Source: a virus
DNA length: 27,228 nucleotides
Reading direction: 5' to 3' (one strand)
IMG/VR virus record: IMGVR_UViG_3300042902_000071
Span: 1-27,228 of that record
In this document: piece by piece, positions 13,874 to 25,325 of the stretch
Position numbering within the stretch: the first letter of the stretch is position 1
How the letters are laid out: each line of letters starts with the position of its first letter
Notes under the pieces: generated by a model
Database searches by the model: none
Told to the model about the DNA's origin: nothing
The model's input: the letters and a program-made list of their open reading frames with translations, nothing else
Made by a program: the position numbers and the translations under genes

Positions 13874-13902
13874 AGTATAGGCAAATAATTTACCTATGTC
13901 AA
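13874..13902 (-). promoter_or_regulatory. Strong sigma70-like promoter for the 13841-12923 gene cluster
   Basis: On the minus strand TTGACA (13902-13897) and TATACT (13879-13874) are separated by 17 bases, close to consensus. The -35 box falls within the last two codons of the polymerase gene. Transcription would start near 13867 and give a leader of about 26 bases before the ATG at 13841. Confidence 0.75.
13877..13897. promoter_or_regulatory. 21-bp near-perfect palindrome in the promoter spacer (candidate operator)
   Basis: The plus strand reads ATAGGCAAAT-A-ATTTACCTAT. Ten of the positions on each side pair except one (13882 with 13892). It fills the space between -35 and -10 and reaches into both boxes, so a bound dimer would exclude RNA polymerase. 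The palindrome is seen directly; the operator role is inference. Confidence 0.62.
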
Positions 13903-15918
13903 CACATAATAACCGACGTCGCGCAACATGCTTTCAGCCTTGTCGATGTACCACTGATAATCGATATCGTCGGGCAGGTCGTCGGGTAGCGTCATGCACG
14001 GGCGGGAGCCATAGGAAAGGCTGACGGTGTTGCCGTTGCTGGCGTAGACGATAGGCCCAGGTGAGCGCGTGCCGTAGTACCAGCGCACGACCTTGCCCAA
14101 GTATTCCGGCACTTGAGGCTCGAAGCATGTGTGATACGCCGTGCGCGGGTCGGTCAGCATGTCACCCAGGCGCCACTTGCGACCCTCTTTCACCCAGCCG
14201 TTCGCGGTGAGTGTGCCCACCATGTCCATGACGCGAGCATCTTTGCGCGGACCTTCACCCCACATTTTCACGCCACCACCGTTGACCTTTTGGATGGTGA
14301 CGAATTTGCGAATGTCTCGGCATGCCGAAATGGTGTATTCAAACGGGATACCTTTGGCCAGGAAGTCCGACACGGCATCGGCGCAAATCTCGACGTCGGG
14401 GTTTTTCTTCTCTACCAAACCGCCTTTGCCATACTCACCCTTGCGCTTCACGTCGTCGGGCGTTTTGATTGCAAAATAGTTATTGACGTCGCGCGCATAG
14501 ATGGCCAAATAATCGTCGGTTTCCATTTCCAAGCCGGTGCGCTTCTCCCATTCGGCTATCAGATACTCGGACGTTGCGAGCTTGTCGCGCGGGCACTTGA
14601 TGACGATGCCGTCGGTGTTCGCCGATATGACCGGTATGGCGTAATGATGGTGCCACTCAATCAGCATCAGCAACGACAGCTGACCGGTCAACGTGGTTTG
14701 GATAAGCATGGCTGGCGCGAATAGCACGCTGAACGGGCTACCGGTCTTGCCGAACGTTCCGTTAATCATAATCTTGCCGCCACCGTCGCCGGTCTTCGCG
14801 TCTTCATATTCGACGGTGCCGATAAATCCGGCCTTTTCGAGCTTCTTCGCGAGCGCTTTGCACAACAGGCGTTCGTCTTTAATGTCGCGGAATTCTTCGA
14901 GGAACTGCGGACCCAGCGCCGGCGGCCACTCTCCCGAATTGAGAATCAAGCTCGGGTAGTAACTGGCCACGTCCGGCATGCGGACCTGATGCGTTTCGTC
15001 GCTGATGGCGACTAGCTTCTTTTCCTGCGAGTGCAGGCCGCCGATACCCATTTTATAGGTCGACGTGCCGATGGTGATTTCGAGCCCTTCAAGCTGGTGC
15101 GGCATTTCAACGCGACCGGTCGGACCCAATCGAAAGACCGACTCGCGCACCAGCTCGAGCGCGCGTTGCAGCCGCGGCGTGCTGTATGAAATGAAATCCG
15201 GCACCTTGTAGCGGAACGCCAAATTCCAGTCGATGTCGGGTTTATAGATGCGATGACCCAACGCCTTCTCGCATCGATGCTTTAGCACGGCCTCGGCGAC
15301 TTGGGCGTCGGATTTGCTGCGCAGGTCCAGCCCGTAGCGCTCGCCCAACGCCTCACGCTGTCGCAGCTGCGGAGCCAGCGCGTCGAACAATTCTTCGAGT
15401 ACGTCAAGGTCGTTTTCGCAATACGTGTCGACTTCCACAATCTCAGGCTCGGTCAGATAGTGTGCAGGGTCATACGGCAAGTCCTGCATTTTTTTGCAAT
15501 GGATGCGGCCGGCGTATTGCTTTTGACTGCCCGCACCTGGCGCGACTTCCATTATGTCGATGTGGTCGGCAGGCTTCCAATCAGGCAACCCGAGTTCCCA
15601 CGGCTTGCGCTTCTCGACAATTATTTGGTCGTTGAGCCATTTCAATTGCTCGCACGTGTAGCCCGCGAGCGCTGCGGTAATCATCGGCACGTCGTAATAA
15701 TTGCCGTTGAAGCTGACCGAACAATAGGCGTCGAACAAAAGCCGGATACGCGCGGCCTCGCTTGGCTCGAACGATTGCCCAGCGCGGAGCCGGAACGCAT
15801 ACGCGACGCCGTTGCGCGGTCGGAATTTGAGCAACCAGTAGTTCGGGAAACACTCCGTGTCATAGAACGCACGCGGGGGCGTCCCGGCTACTGGTGGCGG
15901 TGGTGCTAGGTGAGTCAT
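13894..15918 (-). CDS. DNA polymerase, family B, with 3'-5' exonuclease (674 aa)
   Basis: This is the replicative polymerase. The ATG at 15918 overlaps the upstream stop (TGATG); a TTG 3 bases earlier is less likely. Exonuclease motifs are ExoI Asp20-x-Glu22, ExoII NGNYYD (71-76) and ExoIII YCEND (166-170). Polymerase motifs are A, DVASYYPS (316-323), B, KIMINGTFGK (382-391), and C, ANTDG (433-437). In motif C the usual Asp-Thr-Asp is Asn-Thr-Asp, so one metal ligand is changed. At 674 residues it is compact for family B. It is next to a MazG-like gene and near DUF2815/DUF2800 genes, a common phage replication set. Confidence 0.92.
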   Translation of the reverse strand: MTHLAPPPPVAGTPPRAFYDTECFPNYWLLKFRPRNGVAYAFRLRAGQSFEPSEAARIRLLFDAYCSVSFNGNYYDVPMITAALAGYTCEQLKWLNDQIIVEKRKPWELGLPDWKPADHIDIMEVAPGAGSQKQYAGRIHCKKMQDLPYDPAHYLTEPEIVEVDTYCENDLDVLEELFDALAPQLRQREALGERYGLDLRSKSDAQVAEAVLKHRCEKALGHRIYKPDIDWNLAFRYKVPDFISYSTPRLQRALELVRESVFRLGPTGRVEMPHQLEGLEITIGTSTYKMGIGGLHSQEKKLVAISDETHQVRMPDVASYYPSLILNSGEWPPALGPQFLEEFRDIKDERLLCKALAKKLEKAGFIGTVEYEDAKTGDGGGKIMINGTFGKTGSPFSVLFAPAMLIQTTLTGQLSLLMLIEWHHHYAIPVISANTDGIVIKCPRDKLATSEYLIAEWEKRTGLEMETDDYLAIYARDVNNYFAIKTPDDVKRKGEYGKGGLVEKKNPDVEICADAVSDFLAKGIPFEYTISACRDIRKFVTIQKVNGGGVKMWGEGPRKDARVMDMVGTLTANGWVKEGRKWRLGDMLTDPRTAYHTCFEPQVPEYLGKVVRWYYGTRSPGPIVYASNGNTVSLSYGSRPCMTLPDDLPDDIDYQWYIDKAESMLRDVGYYVLT

Positions 15919-16313
15919 CAATACTTCTTACCGTCATCAAGACGGCGATTCTCGGGCTTGTGGTCAGGACGCGTGGCATTGAACGCCAGCTTCTCGACAA
16001 TCGCGCCGCCGAGGTCAAGCCCCAACGCACCAGCGAGGTCGGCGATACGAATGACGGCGTCGGCCAATTCAACCTCAACCATCGGGCGATGCGGCAGTTT
16101 GTCGTCCATCAGATTTTTGCGGTGACCTTCCATCGCTTCGGACACTTCCGATACGACCAACATCAGCTTTTCGCCGACCACATGGGGGCGTGCGATGACC
16201 GGTTCGCCAGTCTCAAGGTCGTTCCACCAGCCAGCGTCGGTCGACGCCTTGTGGCAGCTTACGACTAGATTCTCAACGCCAATGCGCAAATTCTGTTTGA
16301 CTAAAGGGTGCAT
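15918..16313 (-). CDS. MazG-like nucleotide pyrophosphohydrolase (131 aa)
   Basis: It likely hydrolyses nucleoside triphosphates (NTP or dNTP to NMP plus pyrophosphate) and so cleans or adjusts the nucleotide pool during phage replication. The single MazG-type helical domain shows Glu56, Glu59 and Glu62 (SEVSEAME) followed by Glu82 and Asp85 (VELADAVIRIADLAG), the E..E...E..D metal-binding arrangement. The 131-residue size fits phage versions. A GGAGAG site lies 5 bases before the ATG. It is translationally coupled to the polymerase gene and separated from the upstream gene by a terminator. Confidence 0.82.
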   Translation of the reverse strand: MHPLVKQNLRIGVENLVVSCHKASTDAGWWNDLETGEPVIARPHVVGEKLMLVVSEVSEAMEGHRKNLMDDKLPHRPMVEVELADAVIRIADLAGALGLDLGGAIVEKLAFNATRPDHKPENRRLDDGKKY

Positions 16314-16324
16314 GTTTTCTCTCC

Positions 16325-16355
16325 AAAGAAAAAGCCCCGCGATGCGCTGCGGGGC
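16325..16355 (-). terminator. Intrinsic terminator inside the minus-strand operon
   Basis: Read on the minus strand, GCCCCGC (16355-16349) pairs with GCGGGGC (16340-16334) around an 8-base loop, followed by TTTTTCTTT. It lies just after the DUF2815-like gene and before the MazG-like gene, so it would lower expression of the MazG-polymerase pair relative to upstream genes. Confidence 0.85.
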
Positions 16356-16365
16356 CGTAGTTACG

Positions 16366-17403
16366 TTAAGCCAACATCAGCCCGTTTTGTACCAACATCG
16401 CGTCGGTCCAGCCTTGCGCGATGTAAGCCTCATACGCGATACCATTTGCGGCCGCCGTCATCTTGCTGACTGGTGCCGCTGGTGCCGCTGGTGCCGCTGG
16501 TGCAGCTGGTGCCGCTGGTGCCGCTGGTACTTGCAGGAAGCCCGCGTTAGGGACGACTGGTATGGCAGGCGCAGCCGGCGCAGGGGCGGGTGGCGTCGGC
16601 ACAGAACCAGCGGGCGCCAAAGGGGCAGGTACACCCGGTACGCTAGGAATGCCGGCAGGCGCCACATAGCCCATCGCGGGCGCTGGCATACCCGCGACCG
16701 CAGGGGCATACCCTGGAACCGGGACGGCTGCCGGCACGCCAGCGGGGGCCGCTTGTGGCAAAGGGATTGCGCCCGCTGGCGGTGTCATGCTCGCACCGGC
16801 TGGCAATGGTGCCTGACCAAAGCCCGCACTGGCCACGTCAGGGCCGAAAGTAATTTCCTGACCGTAGGCGCGGAAGCAAACCATGCTGTGATTGATATAA
16901 ACGCCCGGTTGTTGCGCGGAGCCGTTACCGTCGACCGAGCCCGCCACTTCGACAAAATAGCCAGGCTTGCAGAAGTCGGCTTGCGTGACTTGCACGTAAC
17001 CTTGGCCTTCTTGTTGGTACACCTTCGGCGCAAAACCGCCCGAGAATTTGACGACCCAACAACCCGCAAAACCTTCGGTTTCGGAATTCTTACGACCGTT
17101 TTTGTTCGGGATTTGACTGTCACCGTCTTCGATTTTCCAAGCGAAAGACGGGCTCTGCGCGATGTTCGGGAACGCTTGGTTACCGATGGTCCAAATCTGT
17201 GCACCCCAAGGCGTTTGGCCCCAGTGAGTTTCGCCAGGATTCTTCGGAATTGCCAGCGCGAAAAAGTAATTCGAGCGAGGCTGGCCCGCGTTAGGTCCAT
17301 GCTTGGTGACCAGCGGTTTACCTTCGGCGTCCGTCGTGTTCGGGTTATACAGCGAGCCCATGACGATGCGACCGACGGGGAATGTGATATTCGTTTTTGC
17401 CAT
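16366..17403 (-). CDS. Putative ssDNA-binding protein, DUF2815-like, with long Ala/Pro tail (345 aa)
   Basis: The ATG at 17403 comes just after the preceding stop; the upstream extension of the frame lies inside another gene. Residues 1-190 form a strand-rich domain (GRIVMGSLYNPN, NYFFALAIPKN, GYFVEVAGSVDGNG, YINHSMVCFRAYG) that I compare with DUF2815 / OB-fold single-strand DNA-binding proteins. Residues 195-312 are a long linker rich in Pro, Ala and Gly, including six APA-type repeats. The last 30 residues (YEAYIAQGWTDAMLVQNG) form a short conserved-looking helix that may bind partners, as acidic tips of SSBs do. The position between Cas4-like nuclease and polymerase fits. Confidence 0.68.
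   Translation of the reverse strand: MAKTNITFPVGRIVMGSLYNPNTTDAEGKPLVTKHGPNAGQPRSNYFFALAIPKNPGETHWGQTPWGAQIWTIGNQAFPNIAQSPSFAWKIEDGDSQIPNKNGRKNSETEGFAGCWVVKFSGGFAPKVYQQEGQGYVQVTQADFCKPGYFVEVAGSVDGNGSAQQPGVYINHSMVCFRAYGQEITFGPDVASAGFGQAPLPAGASMTPPAGAIPLPQAAPAGVPAAVPVPGYAPAVAGMPAPAMGYVAPAGIPSVPGVPAPLAPAGSVPTPPAPAPAAPAIPVVPNAGFLQVPAAPAAPAAPAAPAAPAAPVSKMTAAANGIAYEAYIAQGWTDAMLVQNGLMLA
16472..16525 (-). repeat. 9-bp tandem repeat, six copies
   Basis: The plus strand carries six copies of GGTGCCGCT, one with a single change (GGTGCAGCT at 16499-16507). They encode the (Ala-Pro-Ala) repeats in the linker of the DUF2815-like protein. All copies keep the frame, so slippage would lengthen or shorten the linker by whole triplets. 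Confidence 0.9.
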
Positions 17404-17404
17404 G

Positions 17405-17740
17405 TTAGTTACCACCTTTCTTCGGAGCGTGTTCGGGATATTCCGCGTAATACACGGATTCGGGTGTTTGCTCGCCGCGACCTTCGAGCCAGCCGTCACG
17501 GTCGGCTACAGCTTTCAAATTGTCGTGATGCTTGGCTACCGACTGCAGCTCGGCGTAAAAGTCGTCGTCGTTCAATACTGGCGGCTTCGCATCTACGACC
17601 TTTCCATAAAATGCGGGGAAGTGACCGCGCACCTTCTCTTCGTCGCCCTCGGCAAACCACTTGAGGAACATTTCAGCCTCAGTTTTGTCGGTCAGACTGT
17701 CGGCGAATTTTTCTGCATCAGCTTTCGTTTTCTTTACCAT
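17405..17740 (-). CDS. Small acidic protein of unknown function (111 aa)
   Basis: The ATG at 17740 is chosen because AGGAG lies 7 bases upstream; a longer frame to 17782 enters the previous gene. The 111-residue protein is rich in Lys, Glu and Asp and mostly helical in the first 55 residues (KADAEKFADSLTDKTEAEMFLKWFAEG), with a less ordered C-terminus (ESVYYAEYPEHAPKKGGN). It lies between the DUF2800 nuclease and the DUF2815-like gene, so a role in DNA replication or recombination is likely. No family was recognised. Confidence 0.75.
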   Translation of the reverse strand: MVKKTKADAEKFADSLTDKTEAEMFLKWFAEGDEEKVRGHFPAFYGKVVDAKPPVLNDDDFYAELQSVAKHHDNLKAVADRDGWLEGRGEQTPESVYYAEYPEHAPKKGGN

Positions 17741-17746
17741 GATGAA

Positions 17747-17756
17747 TCTCCTAGTT
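17747..17756 (-). promoter_or_regulatory. Conserved translation-initiation leader, copy 2
   Basis: AACTAGGAGA on the minus strand before the ATG at 17740. Its TAG is also the stop codon of the upstream DUF2800 gene. Confidence 0.6.
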
Positions 17757-18884
17757 CGTTGTGCCAAATACGCGTCGCGCATCGGCGGGATTATCGGGAA
17801 CCAACTTTACTGACCCCAATGGTGTAACACTGTACGCGCTAATGACGGCTTCGTCAACACCGATTTTTATCGCTTGTTTCGGAGTCTTGACGCCGGGCTT
17901 TGATAAGTCGACGCCCATGAGCTCGCCGATAGACAAAACCTGTTCGACTGGGACCGCCCACTGTTGCCGACCGTAACCTTGTTCGACGCGGTGGAACGGT
18001 ACGGCTTGACCTTGTCGCACGTAAGCGGTCACACATTCCCGCAGCCCCTCGACCCGTGATTGCAGTCGCTCCAATGAACGTTCCATCATTTTCAATTCGA
18101 GGCTCGCGGCGGCCGGCGGTAACTCTACGGGCGACGATTGCACTGCGAATTCGGCGTCGCTGTATGCACCCTTTTGCAAGGCTGGGCACGCATGTCGACC
18201 TGAGCAATCGACGCACTCCGAATTCGTGGTCGCCGTGGGATTCTCGGCAAGCCCCGCGATAGCTGCAGCGTTTAGCCGATTGACGTGCGCGCGCAAATCA
18301 CTCGCCATCACCGACCACGTGCGGACGGGCGCCCCTTTGTAAAAGCATCGGGGCTGTATGACTGTAAAGTGCACGCGGACGGATTGGTCAATGACACCTA
18401 TCGATTGCTCAAATTGGTCCGCGATTCGTTCCAATATGCCGACGGTGTAAATGATTCCCTGTTCGTTTTCGTATTCATCAACGAAGCGGTGCCCGAATTT
18501 GTAGTCGAATACGTGGAGCTCCCGTTGGTCCAAATTGAACGCCCAAATGTCGGGCGTACCCCAGCACTTTTCGTGCACGCACTGGGCGGCAATCGGCGTT
18601 TCGACATATAGCAATTCGGTCGTTGGCATGGCGCCCACTGTCTCGACAACCAGCTCGCTGCCGTCAATCATTTCCTCGGTGACATAGATGCCATTCGGGG
18701 CTTGCATGCCGACGGTGACCACTCGACCCTCGAGCATTTCGGCAAACACCCAATGCGCGGCGGTGCCTTCCATACTCTCGGGCGTGTCGGGCTTCGGGTA
18801 GAGCCTGTTCATCGTCACCCACATGGCGCAACGACTCCAAGCCTTCGCGCCCGACGGTGGCAAGATTGAGTGTGCGCCGCTCAT
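17751..18884 (-). CDS. DUF2800 PD-(D/E)XK nuclease, Cas4/RecB-like with Fe-S cysteines (377 aa)
   Basis: This is a probable single-strand or recombination exonuclease. Nuclease motifs are MEGTAAHWVFAE (38-49, with His44), GTPDIW (109-114, Asp112) and FDYKFG (126-131, Asp127 and Lys129), the D...D-x-K layout of RecB-family nucleases. Cys19, Cys224, Cys227 and Cys233 (one near the N-terminus, three clustered) match the cysteine set that holds a 4Fe-4S cluster in Cas4 and AddB-type enzymes. In many phages DUF2800 is next to DUF2815 and a DNA polymerase, as here. The C-terminus is an extra helical region of unknown role. Confidence 0.87.
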   Translation of the reverse strand: MSGAHSILPPSGAKAWSRCAMWVTMNRLYPKPDTPESMEGTAAHWVFAEMLEGRVVTVGMQAPNGIYVTEEMIDGSELVVETVGAMPTTELLYVETPIAAQCVHEKCWGTPDIWAFNLDQRELHVFDYKFGHRFVDEYENEQGIIYTVGILERIADQFEQSIGVIDQSVRVHFTVIQPRCFYKGAPVRTWSVMASDLRAHVNRLNAAAIAGLAENPTATTNSECVDCSGRHACPALQKGAYSDAEFAVQSSPVELPPAAASLELKMMERSLERLQSRVEGLRECVTAYVRQGQAVPFHRVEQGYGRQQWAVPVEQVLSIGELMGVDLSKPGVKTPKQAIKIGVDEAVISAYSVTPLGSVKLVPDNPADARRVFGTTN

Positions 18885-19798
18885 TATCGGGCCGCAATCA
18901 ACGCGTCGATATTGCGAGCGACTGCCTCGACCAAGTCCAAACGATTCGCCAGCAACGGCAACGCGTGAACGGCTCCACCGGTCGCATCACTACAGCACTG
19001 CGCGACTTCCGCTTGCGTGACCTTGTTGGCCTGCATCGCAGCCGACGTGCGCCCAATCAACGCGACGTAATGTTGGCGCGCGTCCGCGTTGGGTGCAGCT
19101 GGTGGCGTTGGTGCAGCTGGTGGCGTTGGTGCAGCTGGTGGCATCGGCGTCGACGCGGTGGCACTAGGGAACGGCCATTGCGGTTCGACCGGTGCTGTAG
19201 GTGCTGCACCCATAAGCTGACGCAATTCGGCCTCGACCGTCGTCACCAATGCGGCGTCAACCCTCGGCTTTTTGCGCCATGTACCATCGGCGATTTTAGC
19301 CTTGCTGCCGGCATGTATGCGCGCATCCCACGGCAGACCCTTGGTGTCGAGCTCAACGCTTGGCGCAGGGGTCGTGGGGGCCGCAGGTGCCGTCGGGGCA
19401 GTGGCCGTGGGTGCGGTCGGCGCAGGCGGTACGGGGGCGGTCGGCGGTGTCGAAGTAGCCAGCGGCGCCGCGGGGGCAGTCGGCAACGGAGCGGCACCCG
19501 CAGTGGATGGGGCAGCGGTCGCCCCCGGAACTAAAGGGGTGAACGACCCTGGGCCAAAAGCCAACACCGCGGCGTCCAATTCGTGCGAAGGTATCGCCGA
19601 GCCGGCATGCACGCCGAAAGCGGCTTCGGGCAATGTCGATGTGTGGTCGTGGTCCAGTTGCTCGAGTTCACGCGTGGACGTGTCCACTTTGCCGCAAGTG
19701 CCGGCGCACGACTTGGCTGGATATGCGAGGATGAAGCCTGCGACGGCTTCACGTTGTTTTTGGTCAAGACCTGATGGGTCAACGGTAATTTGCATCAT
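18884..19798 (-). CDS. Ala/Pro-rich protein with 'WDARIHAGSKAK' motif (304 aa)
   Basis: This is the first gene of the minus-strand replication operon. The first 55 residues contain two cysteines (CAGTCG). A long Pro/Thr/Ala-rich linker (about 85-145) follows, then a short conserved block LPWDARIHAGSKAKIADGTW (about 153-172) seen in many phage proteins of unknown role, a second Ala/Pro linker encoded by 18-bp repeats, and a helical C-terminal domain (about 240-304). The layout (small domains joined by flexible linkers) suggests a scaffold that brings replication proteins together. The first ATG fits AGGAG, 9 bases upstream. Function not established. Confidence 0.78.
   Translation of the reverse strand: MMQITVDPSGLDQKQREAVAGFILAYPAKSCAGTCGKVDTSTRELEQLDHDHTSTLPEAAFGVHAGSAIPSHELDAAVLAFGPGSFTPLVPGATAAPSTAGAAPLPTAPAAPLATSTPPTAPVPPAPTAPTATAPTAPAAPTTPAPSVELDTKGLPWDARIHAGSKAKIADGTWRKKPRVDAALVTTVEAELRQLMGAAPTAPVEPQWPFPSATASTPMPPAAPTPPAAPTPPAAPNADARQHYVALIGRTSAAMQANKVTQAEVAQCCSDATGGAVHALPLLANRLDLVEAVARNIDALIAAR
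19092..19144 (-). repeat. 18-bp tandem repeat, just under three copies
   Basis: GGTGCAGCT alternates with GGTGGCGTT from 19092; the third copy decays after 19136. It encodes a Pro-Pro-Ala-Ala-type linker in the 304-aa protein. Its half-unit GGTGCAGCT is the same as one copy in the 16472-16525 array. Confidence 0.85.
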
Positions 19799-19806
19799 TT
19801 CGATAT

Positions 19807-19816
19807 TCTCCTAGTT
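19807..19816 (-). promoter_or_regulatory. Conserved translation-initiation leader, copy 3
   Basis: AACTAGGAGA on the minus strand, upstream of the ATG at 19798; identical to the sites at 17747 and 13847. Confidence 0.6.
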
Positions 19817-19826
19817 GAAATAAAAA

Positions 19827-19855
19827 TTGACTGCGGTGCCAATTGTACCGATAAT
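19827..19855 (+). promoter_or_regulatory. Rightward sigma70-like promoter
   Basis: TTGACT (19827-19832) and GATAAT (19850-19855) with a 17-base spacer. A start near 19862 gives a leader of about 26 bases to the methyltransferase ATG at 19888. It overlaps a leftward promoter on the same DNA. Confidence 0.65.
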
Positions 19856-19869
19856 GACGCATCCGTCAA
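19842..19869 (-). promoter_or_regulatory. Leftward sigma70-like promoter of the replication operon
   Basis: On the minus strand TTGACG (19869-19864) and TACAAT (19847-19842) are 16 bases apart. Transcription would start near 19835, 37 bases before the ATG at 19798. Both promoter footprints cover the same 40 bp, so RNA polymerase could use only one at a time. Confidence 0.65.
19855..19868. promoter_or_regulatory. Inverted repeat across both divergent promoters (candidate operator)
   Basis: TGACG (19855-19859) and CGTCA (19864-19868) form a perfect 5-bp inverted repeat with a 4-base centre. It includes most of the leftward -35 box and abuts the rightward -10 box. A near copy (TGACG-4-CGTCAATAA) lies at 24958-24975. 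Confidence 0.5.
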
Positions 19870-19887
19870 TAACAATTTAACGAGACT

Positions 19888-20868
19888 ATGCAAATCTTTA
19901 AGAACAACAATGTTGCAAGCATCATGGTTGGCGATTGCCTGCAGTCAATATCCACAATGCCCGACAGGTCGATAAATTGCTGCGTCACGTCACCCCCTTA
20001 CTACGGGCTTCGCGACTACGGGCACGCTGGTCAAATCGGACTAGAAGAGTCACCCGAAATCTATATTGCGAAATTGGTCGAGGTGTTTCGAGAAGTCCGC
20101 CGCACGCTAACTGACGACGGGACACTGTGGCTAAATATCGGGGATAGTTACGCAAGTTTTCGCGATGGTAAAGCGACACCTGACACCACGCGGGGGGATG
20201 ACACCGGCACCGCCGTGCCCAAAGGGTCGGCGCGAAATCGAAGCGCATCGACATTTAGCGGCTCGAGTGTGAAACACAAAGACCTCATCGGCATCCCCTG
20301 GATGCTCGCGTTTGCACTTCGCGCTGACGGTTGGTATCTGCGTCAAGATATCATTTGGAACAAGCCGAACCCTATGCCCGAAAGCGTGCGCGACCGCTGC
20401 ACTAAATCGCATGAATATATTTTTCTACTGAGCAAATCCCCGAAGTACCATTTCGACGGTGCGGCGATTAAAGAAAAGGCGGTCGGTGGTAGCAAGGGCG
20501 CATCGGCGTCATTTAAGCGGACGGGAAGCAAACGCGGCGTTGCTGACGTGTGCCCTGCGAGCCCCATGCCGACGCACCGCGAAAATCGACCTGACGTTAA
20601 GTATGACGGCGACACTCGCAACCGACGCTCAGTGTGGAATGTGGCGACGCGACCATATAAGGGTGCGCATTTCGCAGTATTCCCTCAGGAACTTATTGAG
20701 CCTTGCATTTTGGCGGGTTGCCCTGCTGACGGTGTAGTGTTGGACCCGTTCGGGGGTAGCGGGACGACCGCCGGGGTGGCGTTGAAACTTGGACGAAACG
20801 CCGTGATTTGCGAATTGAACCCGGATTACTTACCCCTCATGCCGGATAGAATTGAGTCTATAAAATGA
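19888..20868 (+). CDS. DNA methyltransferase, beta class, N4-cytosine/N6-adenine type (326 aa)
   Basis: The catalytic motif TSPPYYGLRDYG (34-45) comes before the AdoMet-binding motif DPFGGSGTTAG (286-296), the order that defines the beta class. SPPY favours N4-cytosine but does not prove it. The middle (about 95-240) carries a variable Ser/Arg/Lys-rich target-recognition region. No restriction endonuclease was seen beside it, so it is probably an orphan enzyme protecting phage DNA from host restriction. The ribosome site before the ATG is weak. It overlaps the helicase gene by 4 bp. Confidence 0.9.
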   Translation: MQIFKNNNVASIMVGDCLQSISTMPDRSINCCVTSPPYYGLRDYGHAGQIGLEESPEIYIAKLVEVFREVRRTLTDDGTLWLNIGDSYASFRDGKATPDTTRGDDTGTAVPKGSARNRSASTFSGSSVKHKDLIGIPWMLAFALRADGWYLRQDIIWNKPNPMPESVRDRCTKSHEYIFLLSKSPKYHFDGAAIKEKAVGGSKGASASFKRTGSKRGVADVCPASPMPTHRENRPDVKYDGDTRNRRSVWNVATRPYKGAHFAVFPQELIEPCILAGCPADGVVLDPFGGSGTTAGVALKLGRNAVICELNPDYLPLMPDRIESIK

Positions 20869-22613
20869 CCGTAGCCCTTCGACCATTCCAACACGAACTA
20901 GAACGCGCTATCTATGAGGCGTGGCAAAGCGGGGCGCGGAACGTGATGCCGGTCGCGGCCACGGGGTCGGGCAAGACAGTTGTGTTATCGAAAGCGCTAC
21001 ACGACGAACCGGGCGTGTCGGCAGCCATCGCGCACCGTCAGGAATTGGTGAGTCAGATATCGATTGCGCTCGCTCGCAACGGTGTGCGGCATCGCGTCAT
21101 CGGAGCCAAAAAGGGCTCGAGTCTGATTCGGGTCATCAGTGCACTACAGGTCGCCGAGCTGGGTTATAGCTTTTTTGACCCCAATGCGAAAACTGGCGTC
21201 GGTGGTGTCGATACTGTGATTCGCATGGACAAGTCGGACCCCTTCTTTACGCAAGCCCGCCTGATGGTGCAAGACGAAGCGCACCACGTATTGAAAGATA
21301 ACAAGTGGGGGAAGGTCGCGCAAATGTTCCCGAATGCTCGCGGCTTACTCCCGACCGCAACACCGTTGCGCGCTGATGGTCGCGGGCTCGGTCGCCACGC
21401 TGACGGGCTGGTCGACGCGATGGTGTTGGCGCCATCCATGCGCGACATTATCGACATGGGGTATTTGACCGACTACCGCATTTTTGCGCCGCCGTCCGAC
21501 CTCGACTTGTCGGCCGTGGCCATGAGTCAGGCGACCGGTGACTACAACGCCGACCAGCTGCGCAAGGCCGTACATAAATCGCATATCACCGGTGACGTGG
21601 TCGCGCACTATCTCAGGCTCGCGCCTGGCAAACTCGGCGTGACCTTTGCCGTCGATGTGGAATCCGCGACCGAGATTGCCGCGGCGTTCCGTGCAGCGGG
21701 TGTGCCGGCCGAAGTGGTGAGCGCGAAAACACCCGACACGTTACGCGCACAAATCCTGCGACGCTTCAAGGCGCGTGAAGTGATGCAATTGGTCAACGTC
21801 GATTTGTTCGGTGAAGGCTTCGACCTGCCAGCGATTGAGGTGGTGAGCTTCGCGCGACCGACCGAATCTTTCGCCCTCTTCTCGCAACAGTTCGGCCGAG
21901 CGTTGCGCCTGATGCTGACCGGTGAAGAATTGCGCGGCTATGACCTACTGAGCGACGCGGGGCGCAAGGCCGTCATTGCTGGCAGCTCGAAGCCCGTGGC
22001 GTTCATCATCGACCACGTCAACAACGTATTGCGCCACGGGTTACCGGACGCACGCCGCGAATGGTCGTTGGATAGGCGCGAGCGTAGGGGTAGCAAAAAG
22101 TCGGACGCGATACCGTTGCGCATTTGCGTCAATGACCAGTGCATGCAGCCCTATGAGCGGATTTATAAATGCTGCCCGTACTGCGGACACTATCCGCCGC
22201 CGCCGTCGCGCAGCTCGCCGGAATATGTCGACGGCGATTTGTTGGAGCTGGACGCCGACACACTGGCTGCATTGCGCGGTGAGATATCGCGAATCGATGG
22301 GGATGCGACCATACCCTATGGCGCCGCACCGGAAGTGGTGGGCGCAGTGCGTAAGCGGCACTGGGAGCGTCGCGAGGCTCAAGGTCAATTGCGCAACGTC
22401 ATCGCGTGGTGGGCTGGCCTAGAGCATGCACAAGGCCGCGGCGAGTCTGAGAGTTACCGACGGTTTTATCACCGGTTCGGTATCGACGTCGCGAACGCTC
22501 AGACACTCGGCACACGTGAGGCCGCCGAGCTCGCCGAGCGCGTGCGGCTCGAGCTGGTCAAATTCGGTATTGACGGAACCGTCAACGCGGGCGCATACTT
22601 CGCGTATCAATAA
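20865..22613 (+). CDS. DEAH-box superfamily II helicase with zinc finger (582 aa)
   Basis: This ATP-dependent DNA or RNA translocase has the full SF2 motif set: Walker A ATGSGKT (32-38), DEAH (137-140), TAT (164-166), NVDLFGEGFDLP (311-322) and QQFGRALR (341-348). A C-terminal zinc finger has Cys421, Cys426, Cys436/437 and Cys440 (C....C.........CC..C), and a helical tail follows. The relatives I know are the SSL2/RecQ-like phage helicases found near VRR-NUC nucleases, as here. It may act in replication initiation or fork repair. The start overlaps the methyltransferase stop. Confidence 0.92.
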   Translation: MTVALRPFQHELERAIYEAWQSGARNVMPVAATGSGKTVVLSKALHDEPGVSAAIAHRQELVSQISIALARNGVRHRVIGAKKGSSLIRVISALQVAELGYSFFDPNAKTGVGGVDTVIRMDKSDPFFTQARLMVQDEAHHVLKDNKWGKVAQMFPNARGLLPTATPLRADGRGLGRHADGLVDAMVLAPSMRDIIDMGYLTDYRIFAPPSDLDLSAVAMSQATGDYNADQLRKAVHKSHITGDVVAHYLRLAPGKLGVTFAVDVESATEIAAAFRAAGVPAEVVSAKTPDTLRAQILRRFKAREVMQLVNVDLFGEGFDLPAIEVVSFARPTESFALFSQQFGRALRLMLTGEELRGYDLLSDAGRKAVIAGSSKPVAFIIDHVNNVLRHGLPDARREWSLDRRERRGSKKSDAIPLRICVNDQCMQPYERIYKCCPYCGHYPPPPSRSSPEYVDGDLLELDADTLAALRGEISRIDGDATIPYGAAPEVVGAVRKRHWERREAQGQLRNVIAWWAGLEHAQGRGESESYRRFYHRFGIDVANAQTLGTREAAELAERVRLELVKFGIDGTVNAGAYFAYQ

Positions 22614-23478: not shown

Positions 23479-23960
23479 CACCCGCCGTCTATCAATGGGC
23501 CGTGCGCAACGGTGTGAGCCATCAAGCGCTTGTCGAGCTGCAAGCGTTGTTCGGCATGCACGGTGACCACACGTTACCGGACAGCGTCACGGGGGCGAGC
23601 GAGGGGGCCGTGCAAGCTGCGGTGAGGCTCGAGGCCGCGCGTAAGGGCGTCAAGCTATTCCGCAACAACGTCGGCGTGCTGATGGACGCAAACGGGCGGC
23701 CGGTGCGCTACGGCCTGGCGAACGACTCCAAGCAAGTGAATGAAGTGATGAAGTCGGGCGACCTTATCGGATGGCGCCCGGTGCTGATTGAACAACGGCA
23801 CGTCGGGCACGTCATCGCTCAATTCGTCAGCCGTGAGTGCAAGCGTAAGGGATGGCGATATACTGGAAGTGACAGGGAGCCGGCGCAGCTTGCGTGGGCG
23901 CAATTGATAACTAGCGGGGGCGGCGATGCGGCCTTTTGCGCGGGGGAGGGTACGTTGTGA
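23475..23960 (+). CDS. VRR-NUC domain nuclease (161 aa)
   Basis: This is a PD-(D/E)XK-type nuclease of the VRR-NUC group, which cuts branched DNA structures such as flaps or Holliday-like junctions in replication. Motifs are SEGAVQAAVRLEAARKG (42-58, Glu43, Gln47, Arg51), LFRNNVG (61-67), RYGLAN (78-83), SGDLIGW (94-100, Asp96) and VSRECKRKGWR (118-128, Glu121 and Lys123). EPAQLAWAQLITSGGGDAAF is the usual end. The pairing with an SF2 helicase in one operon is typical of phage replication modules. Confidence 0.88.
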   Translation: MTPAVYQWAVRNGVSHQALVELQALFGMHGDHTLPDSVTGASEGAVQAAVRLEAARKGVKLFRNNVGVLMDANGRPVRYGLANDSKQVNEVMKSGDLIGWRPVLIEQRHVGHVIAQFVSRECKRKGWRYTGSDREPAQLAWAQLITSGGGDAAFCAGEGTL

Positions 23961-24982
23961 TTTTACATATGGATTGCCGACACGGGCTGGCGATGTTGCC
24001 CGACAATTCGGTCGACGCAATACTTACCGACCCGCCGTATGAATTGGGATTCATGGGTAAGGCTTGGGACAAAACTGGCATTGCGTATGACGTCGAACTG
24101 TGGCGAGAAGCGTTGCGCGTTTTGAAGCCGGGCGGGCACATGTTGGCATTTTCATCAGCGCGAACTTATCACCGGATGGCGTGCGCAATCGAAGACTCGG
24201 GCTTTGATATCCGCGACCAAATCATGTGGGTTTACGGCAGCGGCTTTCCCAAATCAAAAAATCTCGACGGCGAATTGCAAGGCTGGGGCACCGCACTCAA
24301 GCCGGCGCATGAGCCGATATGTATGGCACGCAAGCCATTGATAGGCACCGTTGCGGCGAACGTGTTGGCCCACGGAACGGGTGCGATTAACATTGACGGC
24401 TGCAGGGTTGGGAGTGGTGCCGGTACAAATCTGACAGCCAGTGAGCATAACGAAGCGGGTCGCTGGCCCGCGAACCTTATCCACGACGGTAGCGATGAAG
24501 TGTTGAGCGCATTCCCCGACGCGCCTGGTCAACTTGCGAACGCCAGCACTAACGGTGAGGCGCGCAAAACTCAAAACGTTTACGGTAGCATGCGACGCGG
24601 GCGCGGCGATGAACCGAGCGCCACTAGCGACAACGCCGGACATGTTGGCTTTAAGATGAAGCCCGGCGAACGCAGGCTTGACGCGGGGAGCGCCGCACGC
24701 TTCTTCTACTGTGCGAAGGCGAGCAAATCCGAACGTGGCGCCGATAACAAACACCCAACGGTTAAACCGATAAAGCTCGGGCAATATTTGGCGCGACTCA
24801 TTTGCCCGAAGGGGGGAACGTTGGTTGACATATTCGCAGGCTCGGGCTCATTCGGAGTGGCGGCGAAACTTGAAGGTTTCGATTTTTTGGGGTTCGACAC
24901 TGACGTCGAAAGCGTGACCGTGGGTAATGCGAGAATTGAGTTGGCGCAACTTACCGTTGACGACCCCGTCAATAAGCAATAG
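23957..24982 (+). CDS. Second DNA methyltransferase, DPPY type (341 aa)
   Basis: The GTG at 23957 overlaps the upstream stop (GTGA) and has GGGGGAGGG 6 bases before it; a TTG at 23936 is a weaker choice. The catalytic DPPYELG (25-31) precedes a long variable target region and HPTVKP (266-271); the AdoMet-binding DIFAGSGSFG (291-300) is near the C-terminus, the beta-class order. DPPY with HPTxKP favours N6-adenine methylation. The protein is unrelated in its middle to the methyltransferase at 19888, so they probably mark different sites. No partner nuclease was seen. Confidence 0.9.
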   Translation: MILHMDCRHGLAMLPDNSVDAILTDPPYELGFMGKAWDKTGIAYDVELWREALRVLKPGGHMLAFSSARTYHRMACAIEDSGFDIRDQIMWVYGSGFPKSKNLDGELQGWGTALKPAHEPICMARKPLIGTVAANVLAHGTGAINIDGCRVGSGAGTNLTASEHNEAGRWPANLIHDGSDEVLSAFPDAPGQLANASTNGEARKTQNVYGSMRRGRGDEPSATSDNAGHVGFKMKPGERRLDAGSAARFFYCAKASKSERGADNKHPTVKPIKLGQYLARLICPKGGTLVDIFAGSGSFGVAAKLEGFDFLGFDTDVESVTVGNARIELAQLTVDDPVNKQ

Positions 24983-24985
24983 ACT
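24957..24985 (+). promoter_or_regulatory. Possible promoter with inverted repeat before the TetR-like gene
   Basis: TTGACG (24957-24962), 17-base spacer, TAGACT (24980-24985). The -35 is the left arm of a perfect 6-bp inverted repeat, TTGACG-ACCC-CGTCAA (24957-24972). It lies over the last codons of the methyltransferase gene. The -10 is only a fair match. Confidence 0.4.
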
Positions 24986-25013: not shown

Positions 25014-25325
25014 ATGAGCAAAAAACGCCAGCAACCCGACGACCGTCGATATCAAATCCTAACCGCCGCGCTGACGGTCGCCGAACGACCTGGTGGATGG
25101 TCAGCACTGACGCGCGAGCTAGTGGCCAAAGAGGTCGGATGCGCCGAAGCGCTGATATCAAAATACTTTGGCACCATGCCCGACTTTAAGCGAACAATCA
25201 TGCGCTCGGCAATCCTGACTGAGAACTTGAGCATCATCGCGCAAGGGCTCGCAACCGGTGACCGCCACGCTCAGAAGGCCGACGACGCCGTCAAACAATC
25301 AGCACTCGCAACACTGATGGGCTGA
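25014..25325 (+). CDS. Small TetR-like HTH regulator (103 aa)
   Basis: The ATG at 25014 gives 103 residues. The segment RRYQILTAALTVAERPGGWSALTRELVAKEVGCAEALISKYFG (split over about residues 11-53) matches the TetR N-terminal domain: a first helix, then the 'V A.E.G....LI.KYFG' helix-turn-helix. The usual ligand-binding half is missing, leaving a short helical tail. It is a likely phage transcription regulator, and a candidate to bind the shared motif at 19855 and 24958. The ribosome site before the ATG is weak. The gene is followed by the primase after 2 bases. Confidence 0.72.
   Translation: MSKKRQQPDDRRYQILTAALTVAERPGGWSALTRELVAKEVGCAEALISKYFGTMPDFKRTIMRSAILTENLSIIAQGLATGDRHAQKADDAVKQSALATLMG

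Follow-up and report, generated by a model that had tools for sequence, protein, structure and literature searches.

How do two divergent replication arms share a control region when their promoters lie on the same 43 bp? The question arises in a phage record of 27,228 bases, called here the window (the whole stretch of DNA analyzed), in which late genes run rightward up to ~13.8 kb and two replication arms diverge from a short gap (Table 1). For positions 19827–19869, the earlier note proposed two oppositely directed promoters, each with its −10 box inside the spacer of the other. RNA polymerase could not occupy both, so that the arms might be alternately expressed or balanced by a regulator. 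The first protein of the leftward arm (304 aa) has a long repetitive middle rich in Ala, Pro and Val; its sequence is weakly conserved, yet its gene stands first in the arm in most relatives. The rightward arm carries two DNA methyltransferase genes (19888–20868 and 23936–24982), and the presence and position of methyltransferases differ among relatives, none being found in this arm of the related records L109, L113 and L132. A genome collection search for the host returned a single match, a distant one in an Acetobacteraceae MAG.

Table 1. Features of the window around the divergence of the two replication arms
Feature	Position	Strand	Details
Leftward replication arm	13894–19798	−	DNA polymerase, pyrophosphatase-like protein, gp2.5-like SSB, exonuclease, 304-aa protein
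Rightward arm	from 19888	+	Methyltransferase, helicase, small ORFs, nuclease, second methyltransferase, TetR-like protein, primase-like protein
Divergent-ORF gap	19799–19887		89 bp, between the two arms
Rightward promoter TTGACT-17-GATAAT (predicted)	19827–19855	+	−35 19827–19832; −10 19850–19855; predicted start ~19862
Leftward promoter TTGACG-16-TACAAT (predicted)	19842–19869	−	−35 19869–19864; −10 19847–19842; predicted start ~19835
Putative operator TGACG-CATC-CGTCA	19855–19868	.	Leftward −35; last base of rightward −10 to ~+7
Putative operator-promoter TTGACG-17-TACAGT	17829–17857	−	Palindrome 17843–17856; within exonuclease 3′ end, upstream of small ORF and SSB
Putative operator-promoter TTGACG-18-CATACT	22570–22599	+	Palindrome 22571–22584; within helicase gene 3′ end
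Putative operator-promoter TTGACG-17-TAGACT	24957–24985	+	Palindrome 24958–24971; upstream of TetR-like gene
DNA polymerase	13894–15921	−
gp2.5-like ssDNA-binding/annealing protein	16366–17412	−	ORF bounds; ATG start probably 17403
Exonuclease	17751–18884	−	phrog_69
304-aa protein	18884–19798	−	Leftward arm gene 1; function unassigned
DNA methyltransferase	19888–20868	+	Rightward arm gene 1
DNA helicase	20865–22613	+	phrog_16
TetR_N-type predicted DNA-binding protein	25014–25325	+	103 aa; PHROG_8723; candidate regulator

Both promoters were found exactly where the earlier note had put them, and the box coordinates confirm that each −10 lies within the spacer of the opposing promoter. The two promoters overlap by 14 bp, with 2 bp between their −10 boxes. 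Both score 10/12, and a blind scan returned them as the top two promoter-like sites within 15–25 kb. The rightward promoter faces the methyltransferase, helicase, nuclease, TetR and primase arm, while the leftward promoter faces the arm of the unassigned gene, exonuclease, SSB and polymerase, with an AGGAG ribosome site ahead of the start codon at 19798. When the gap was dinucleotide-shuffled, an overlapping face-to-face pair appeared in 0/5000 shuffles at a score of at least 10/12 and in 0.06% at a score of at least 9/12; in random 100-bp stretches of related phages the rate was 0.07–0.4%. These rates reject a chance promoter match.

The pair is kept in 26 of the 37 gaps examined, that is, in 18/18 near relatives and in 8 more distant phages. 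It is present in CP-T1, Scuro, SppYZU01, AeroV_348, PY6, PD0307 and Vibrio 1.009.O, all without the exact TGACG-N4-CGTCA in the gap. For the near clade, gaps were located by gene position only, which gave 18 distinct cores. TTGAC, CGT with TTAT, and GTCAA are each conserved in 100% of these cores and the intervening bases are poorly conserved; the two −35 boxes and the rightward −10 hardly vary, and the leftward −10 stands at 16–18 nt in every core. Although predicted from sequence, both overlapping promoters are real and evolutionarily conserved.

One element was missed in the earlier note. A perfect palindrome overlaps both promoters, and the leftward −35 is itself one half of it, in the form TTGACG-N4-CGTCA(A). 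On the leftward promoter the palindrome spans ~−33 to −20, covering the −35 and half of the spacer, and on the rightward promoter it spans ~−7 to +7, predicted start included. A palindrome over a core promoter is where a repressor would sit. The window holds four exact copies of TGACGNNNNCGTCA, at 17843, 19855, 22571 and 24958; shuffled windows held a mean of 0.05 and a maximum of 1 in any of 300 shuffles. All four copies coincide with promoter-like sites of the blind scan, and each time a palindrome half forms the −35. As two of the four sites fall within genes, the encoded protein may account for part of their conservation; the exonuclease site is read as V-D-E-A/S-V and the helicase site as G-I-D-G-T-V-N. 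The exonuclease-end site is retained even with a codon change from Ala to Ser (L096 and L113).

Related records were fetched via their exonuclease and polymerase genes, without use of the motif. Of 40 such records, 29 contain the palindrome and a single one matches a reversed control pattern. Its recurrent places are ~40–60 bp upstream of the TetR-like gene, the divergence gap, the exonuclease 3′ end before SSB and the vicinity of the helicase end; the near relatives L113 and L120 have no copy directly upstream of the TetR gene. A −10 box matching at least 4/6 stands at 16–18 nt from 110 of 131 distinct palindrome loci versus 64 of 1421 other TTGACG (4.5%). The half-sites are separated by N4 87 times and by any other spacing at most 5 times, and this enrichment at N4 only rejects an any-spacing repeat artefact. 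An inverted half-site at a constant distance from a promoter −35 is what would be expected for a dimeric protein competing with polymerase. A reading of the N4 palindrome as an RNA hairpin with a tetraloop was rejected as well: the loop is variable, and transcription from the leftward promoter starts downstream of the element and therefore does not include it.

IMG/VR was scanned for the compound gap pattern, consisting of the palindrome, TTAT and GTCAA. The scan returned 43 stretches, ~31 of which hold the divergence gap seen here, with exonucleases of as little as ~30% identity; five belong to another phage group and seven are chance-like. The last seven (L153, L155, L163, L164, L169, L176 and L177) showed no homology to the genes of this phage and are probably chance matches. 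In the other phage group (L158, L161, L173, L174 and L178), the palindrome, TTATGGATAATAATTATCAC and GTCAA precede a gene unmatched by the window queries; the rightward spacer would be only 14 nt, so this may be a different arrangement. In the divergence gaps of L148 and L160, the palindrome of the face-to-face pair is accompanied by a second one at a distance of 57 bp, which belongs to a leftward operator-promoter downstream.

Among cultured phages, JD001 (Jedunavirus), CP-T1 and Scuro share with the window a homologous TetR gene, the same divergent arms and the same or variant palindromes. Their TetR family regulators exist as annotations, and no description of an operator or regulon was found in the papers searched; literature on the promoters of Jedunavirus, JD001, CP-T1, AAM22 and PEAT2 likewise yielded nothing relevant. 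Klebsiella JD001 carries nine exact palindromes in 39 kb and one near-copy ~57 bp upstream of its TetR gene, several of the palindromes adjoining small counter-oriented genes scattered among structural genes. Exact palindromes occur six times in Pectobacterium PEAT2 and three times in Pantoea AAM22. Acinetobacter Scuro has the variant TTGACA-N4-TGTCA five times, including in the gap and ~50 bp upstream of its own TetR gene, and Vibrio CP-T1 has TTGAC-N6-GTCAA five times, with the gap copy placed on the rightward −35 instead. In PY6, PD0307 and Vibrio 1.009.O, the TetR gene and the promoter pair are present and the exact palindrome was not found. A different dyad, GTAGCGC-N4-GCGCTAC, occurs five times in Pseudoalteromonas phage vB_Psp_PY6 (L192), at 201, 8397, 16007, 20375 and 21282, mostly at gene ends; it may represent terminators or another operator. 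No tyrosine integrase (PF00589) was found in 19 related records, several of 42–46 kb, which suggests a lytic life style, notwithstanding the record of CP-T1 as coming from an induced lysogen.

The candidate for binding the palindrome is the TetR-like protein of the rightward arm, which has a copy ~42 bp upstream of its gene. This gene is retained throughout the group. Its 19 homologues all belong to PHROG_8723 and 16 of the 19 match Pfam TetR_N, while the window protein itself, at 18.3 bits, misses the curated cut-off of 24 bits. Homologues in cultured relatives are annotated as TetR family. The AlphaFold model of the protein has a mean pLDDT of 89.9; the top PDB matches of a profile search and the Foldseek top 50 are TetR-type, with VIA Z up to 11.1. 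The family thus has the N-terminal TetR_N helix-turn-helix. A C-terminal ligand-binding/dimerisation domain (~120–150 residues) is missing, and because only ~35–50 residues follow the helix-turn-helix, the protein is not a standard family member; at about half the usual TetR length, it is rather a mini-regulator built around a TetR-type DNA-binding domain. The recognition helix of the JD001 protein differs from that of the window protein despite the same motif, and covariation between recognition helix and operator is suggestive only. From co-occurrence and adjacency, we conclude that the palindrome is probably bound by this small phage-encoded protein.

A dimer bound to the palindrome would lie over the leftward −35 with half of its spacer and over the rightward start region and so should block both promoters; joint shut-off is what a single operator overlapping both core promoters predicts. 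Near-consensus boxes at proper spacing mean that neither promoter needs activation. Since the regulator's own gene also carries an operator copy, the simplest circuit is negative feedback on both arms and on the regulator. The gap would then be a divergent early control region, where two sigma-70-type promoters over 43 bp would fire both arms on infection. Expression of the rightward arm would yield the TetR-type protein, whose gene stands behind an operator copy of its own; as it accumulates, the protein would bind the palindromes, shutting down both arms and itself together, either as negative feedback or as an early-gene off switch. Competition for RNA polymerase between the promoters may add balance without being the main control. 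Promoters, operator copies, their positions and conservation, and the regulator fold are read directly from the DNA; from these we infer protein-operator binding, repression and its timing. We consider it rather probable that these apparently lytic phages control their early genes through an autoregulated operator regulon, with a single operator closing down the two replication arms jointly. Whether a large, mostly lytic group of proteobacterial phages shares it as an undescribed early-gene regulon, with −35-half palindromes, a ~100-aa TetR-type protein and both arms under one operator, seems to us evenly balanced; this group spans uncultured environmental phages to Jedunavirus, AAM22, Scuro and CP-T1.

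How far does joint control agree with the earlier reading? The mutual exclusion of polymerases is sound by geometry and by precedent, as at a bidirectional promoter the binding of one RNA polymerase excludes the opposing one (PMC12825309). The conserved palindrome across both promoters also makes a regulator likely; alternate expression of the arms, however, is not supported. Alternation is not the default expectation, because the five E. coli bidirectional promoters tested competed only on strong activation, their basal activity being too low for it (PMC12825309). It could arise if the palindrome-bound regulator favored one arm and blocked the other, and a single site does overlap two opposing promoters. 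MerR-type regulators act in this way at PsoxS/soxR, activation of a bidirectional promoter in one direction represses the other (PMC12825309), and some TetR-type regulators also activate, such as LuxR (fold matches 7amn/7amt). We nevertheless hold such a directional switch to be quite unlikely: a dimer at this position should block both promoters, the spacers are 16–18 nt whereas MerR targets have long spacers, and the promoters are near consensus without activation.

The palindrome might also belong to a host regulator, with the phage TetR-like protein acting elsewhere. The same motif occurs alongside rather different TetR recognition helices, and the link between phage protein and site is a predicted one. 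Yet the motif recurs in phages whose hosts differ (Klebsiella, Pantoea and others) and lies upstream of the phage TetR gene, with the Scuro variant recurring at the TetR gene of that phage, so that we judge a host regulator unlikely. Conservation of the promoter pair extends beyond that of the exact palindrome, which would suit promoters balanced by RNA polymerase competition only, with no dedicated regulator and an incidental inverted repeat. This is very unlikely, as the second half-site CGTCA is no leftward promoter element and is kept at exactly N4, and the repeat is also found at single promoters, where such competition is impossible. Both promoters being predictions, only one of them could be functional and the other a by-product; we regard this as most improbable given the near-invariant −35 boxes and rightward −10 amid varying bases, the constant range of the leftward −10 in the 18 near-clade cores, and the gene start that each promoter faces.

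Overlapping divergent promoters under one operator are already known, and the phage operator set with joint shut-off proposed here is a new variant, widespread in phages. In the E. coli biotin operon (BirA, bioA/bioBFCD) and in argECBH, overlapping face-to-face promoters are co-repressed through one operator over both; these are host biosynthesis genes with a co-repressor ligand. Like them, the window has overlapping divergent promoters under one putative operator, an operator-like palindrome that overlaps both. Unlike them, it concerns phage replication arms and a TetR-type protein in which no ligand domain is evident, and its operator incorporates the −35 and recurs at several phage promoters. 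Tn10 tetR/tetA combines a TetR-type helix-turn-helix, palindromic operators in divergent overlapping promoters and autoregulation. The window protein (103 aa), in contrast, is about half the normal size, with no room for the usual ligand domain, and its putative regulon comprises at least four promoter regions.

Bidirectional promoters of E. coli have a shared symmetric −10 and starts mostly 18 (also 10 and 23) bp apart (Warman et al., 2026; PMC12825309). As in those promoters, the opposed sigma-70 promoters of the window cannot both hold polymerase; unlike them, the −10 boxes of the window (19842–19847 and 19850–19855) are separate and adjacent rather than shared, the starts are predicted ~27 bp apart and both promoters have −35 boxes. 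The pLS20 conjugation switch also has overlapping divergent promoters under regulation and, unlike the window, involves plasmid conjugation genes and DNA looping (PMC4207663). The open-access papers searched contained no description of the phage operator set or of its regulator.

With its short, near-invariant operator, the proposed circuit would provide a natural and conserved setting in which to ask how polymerase is divided between overlapping promoters. If the proposed circuit is true, PHROG_8723, annotated as "TetR family regulator" or unknown in many phages, would gain a binding site, targets and a role, which would be to switch off early replication genes in phages that seemingly do not lysogenise.
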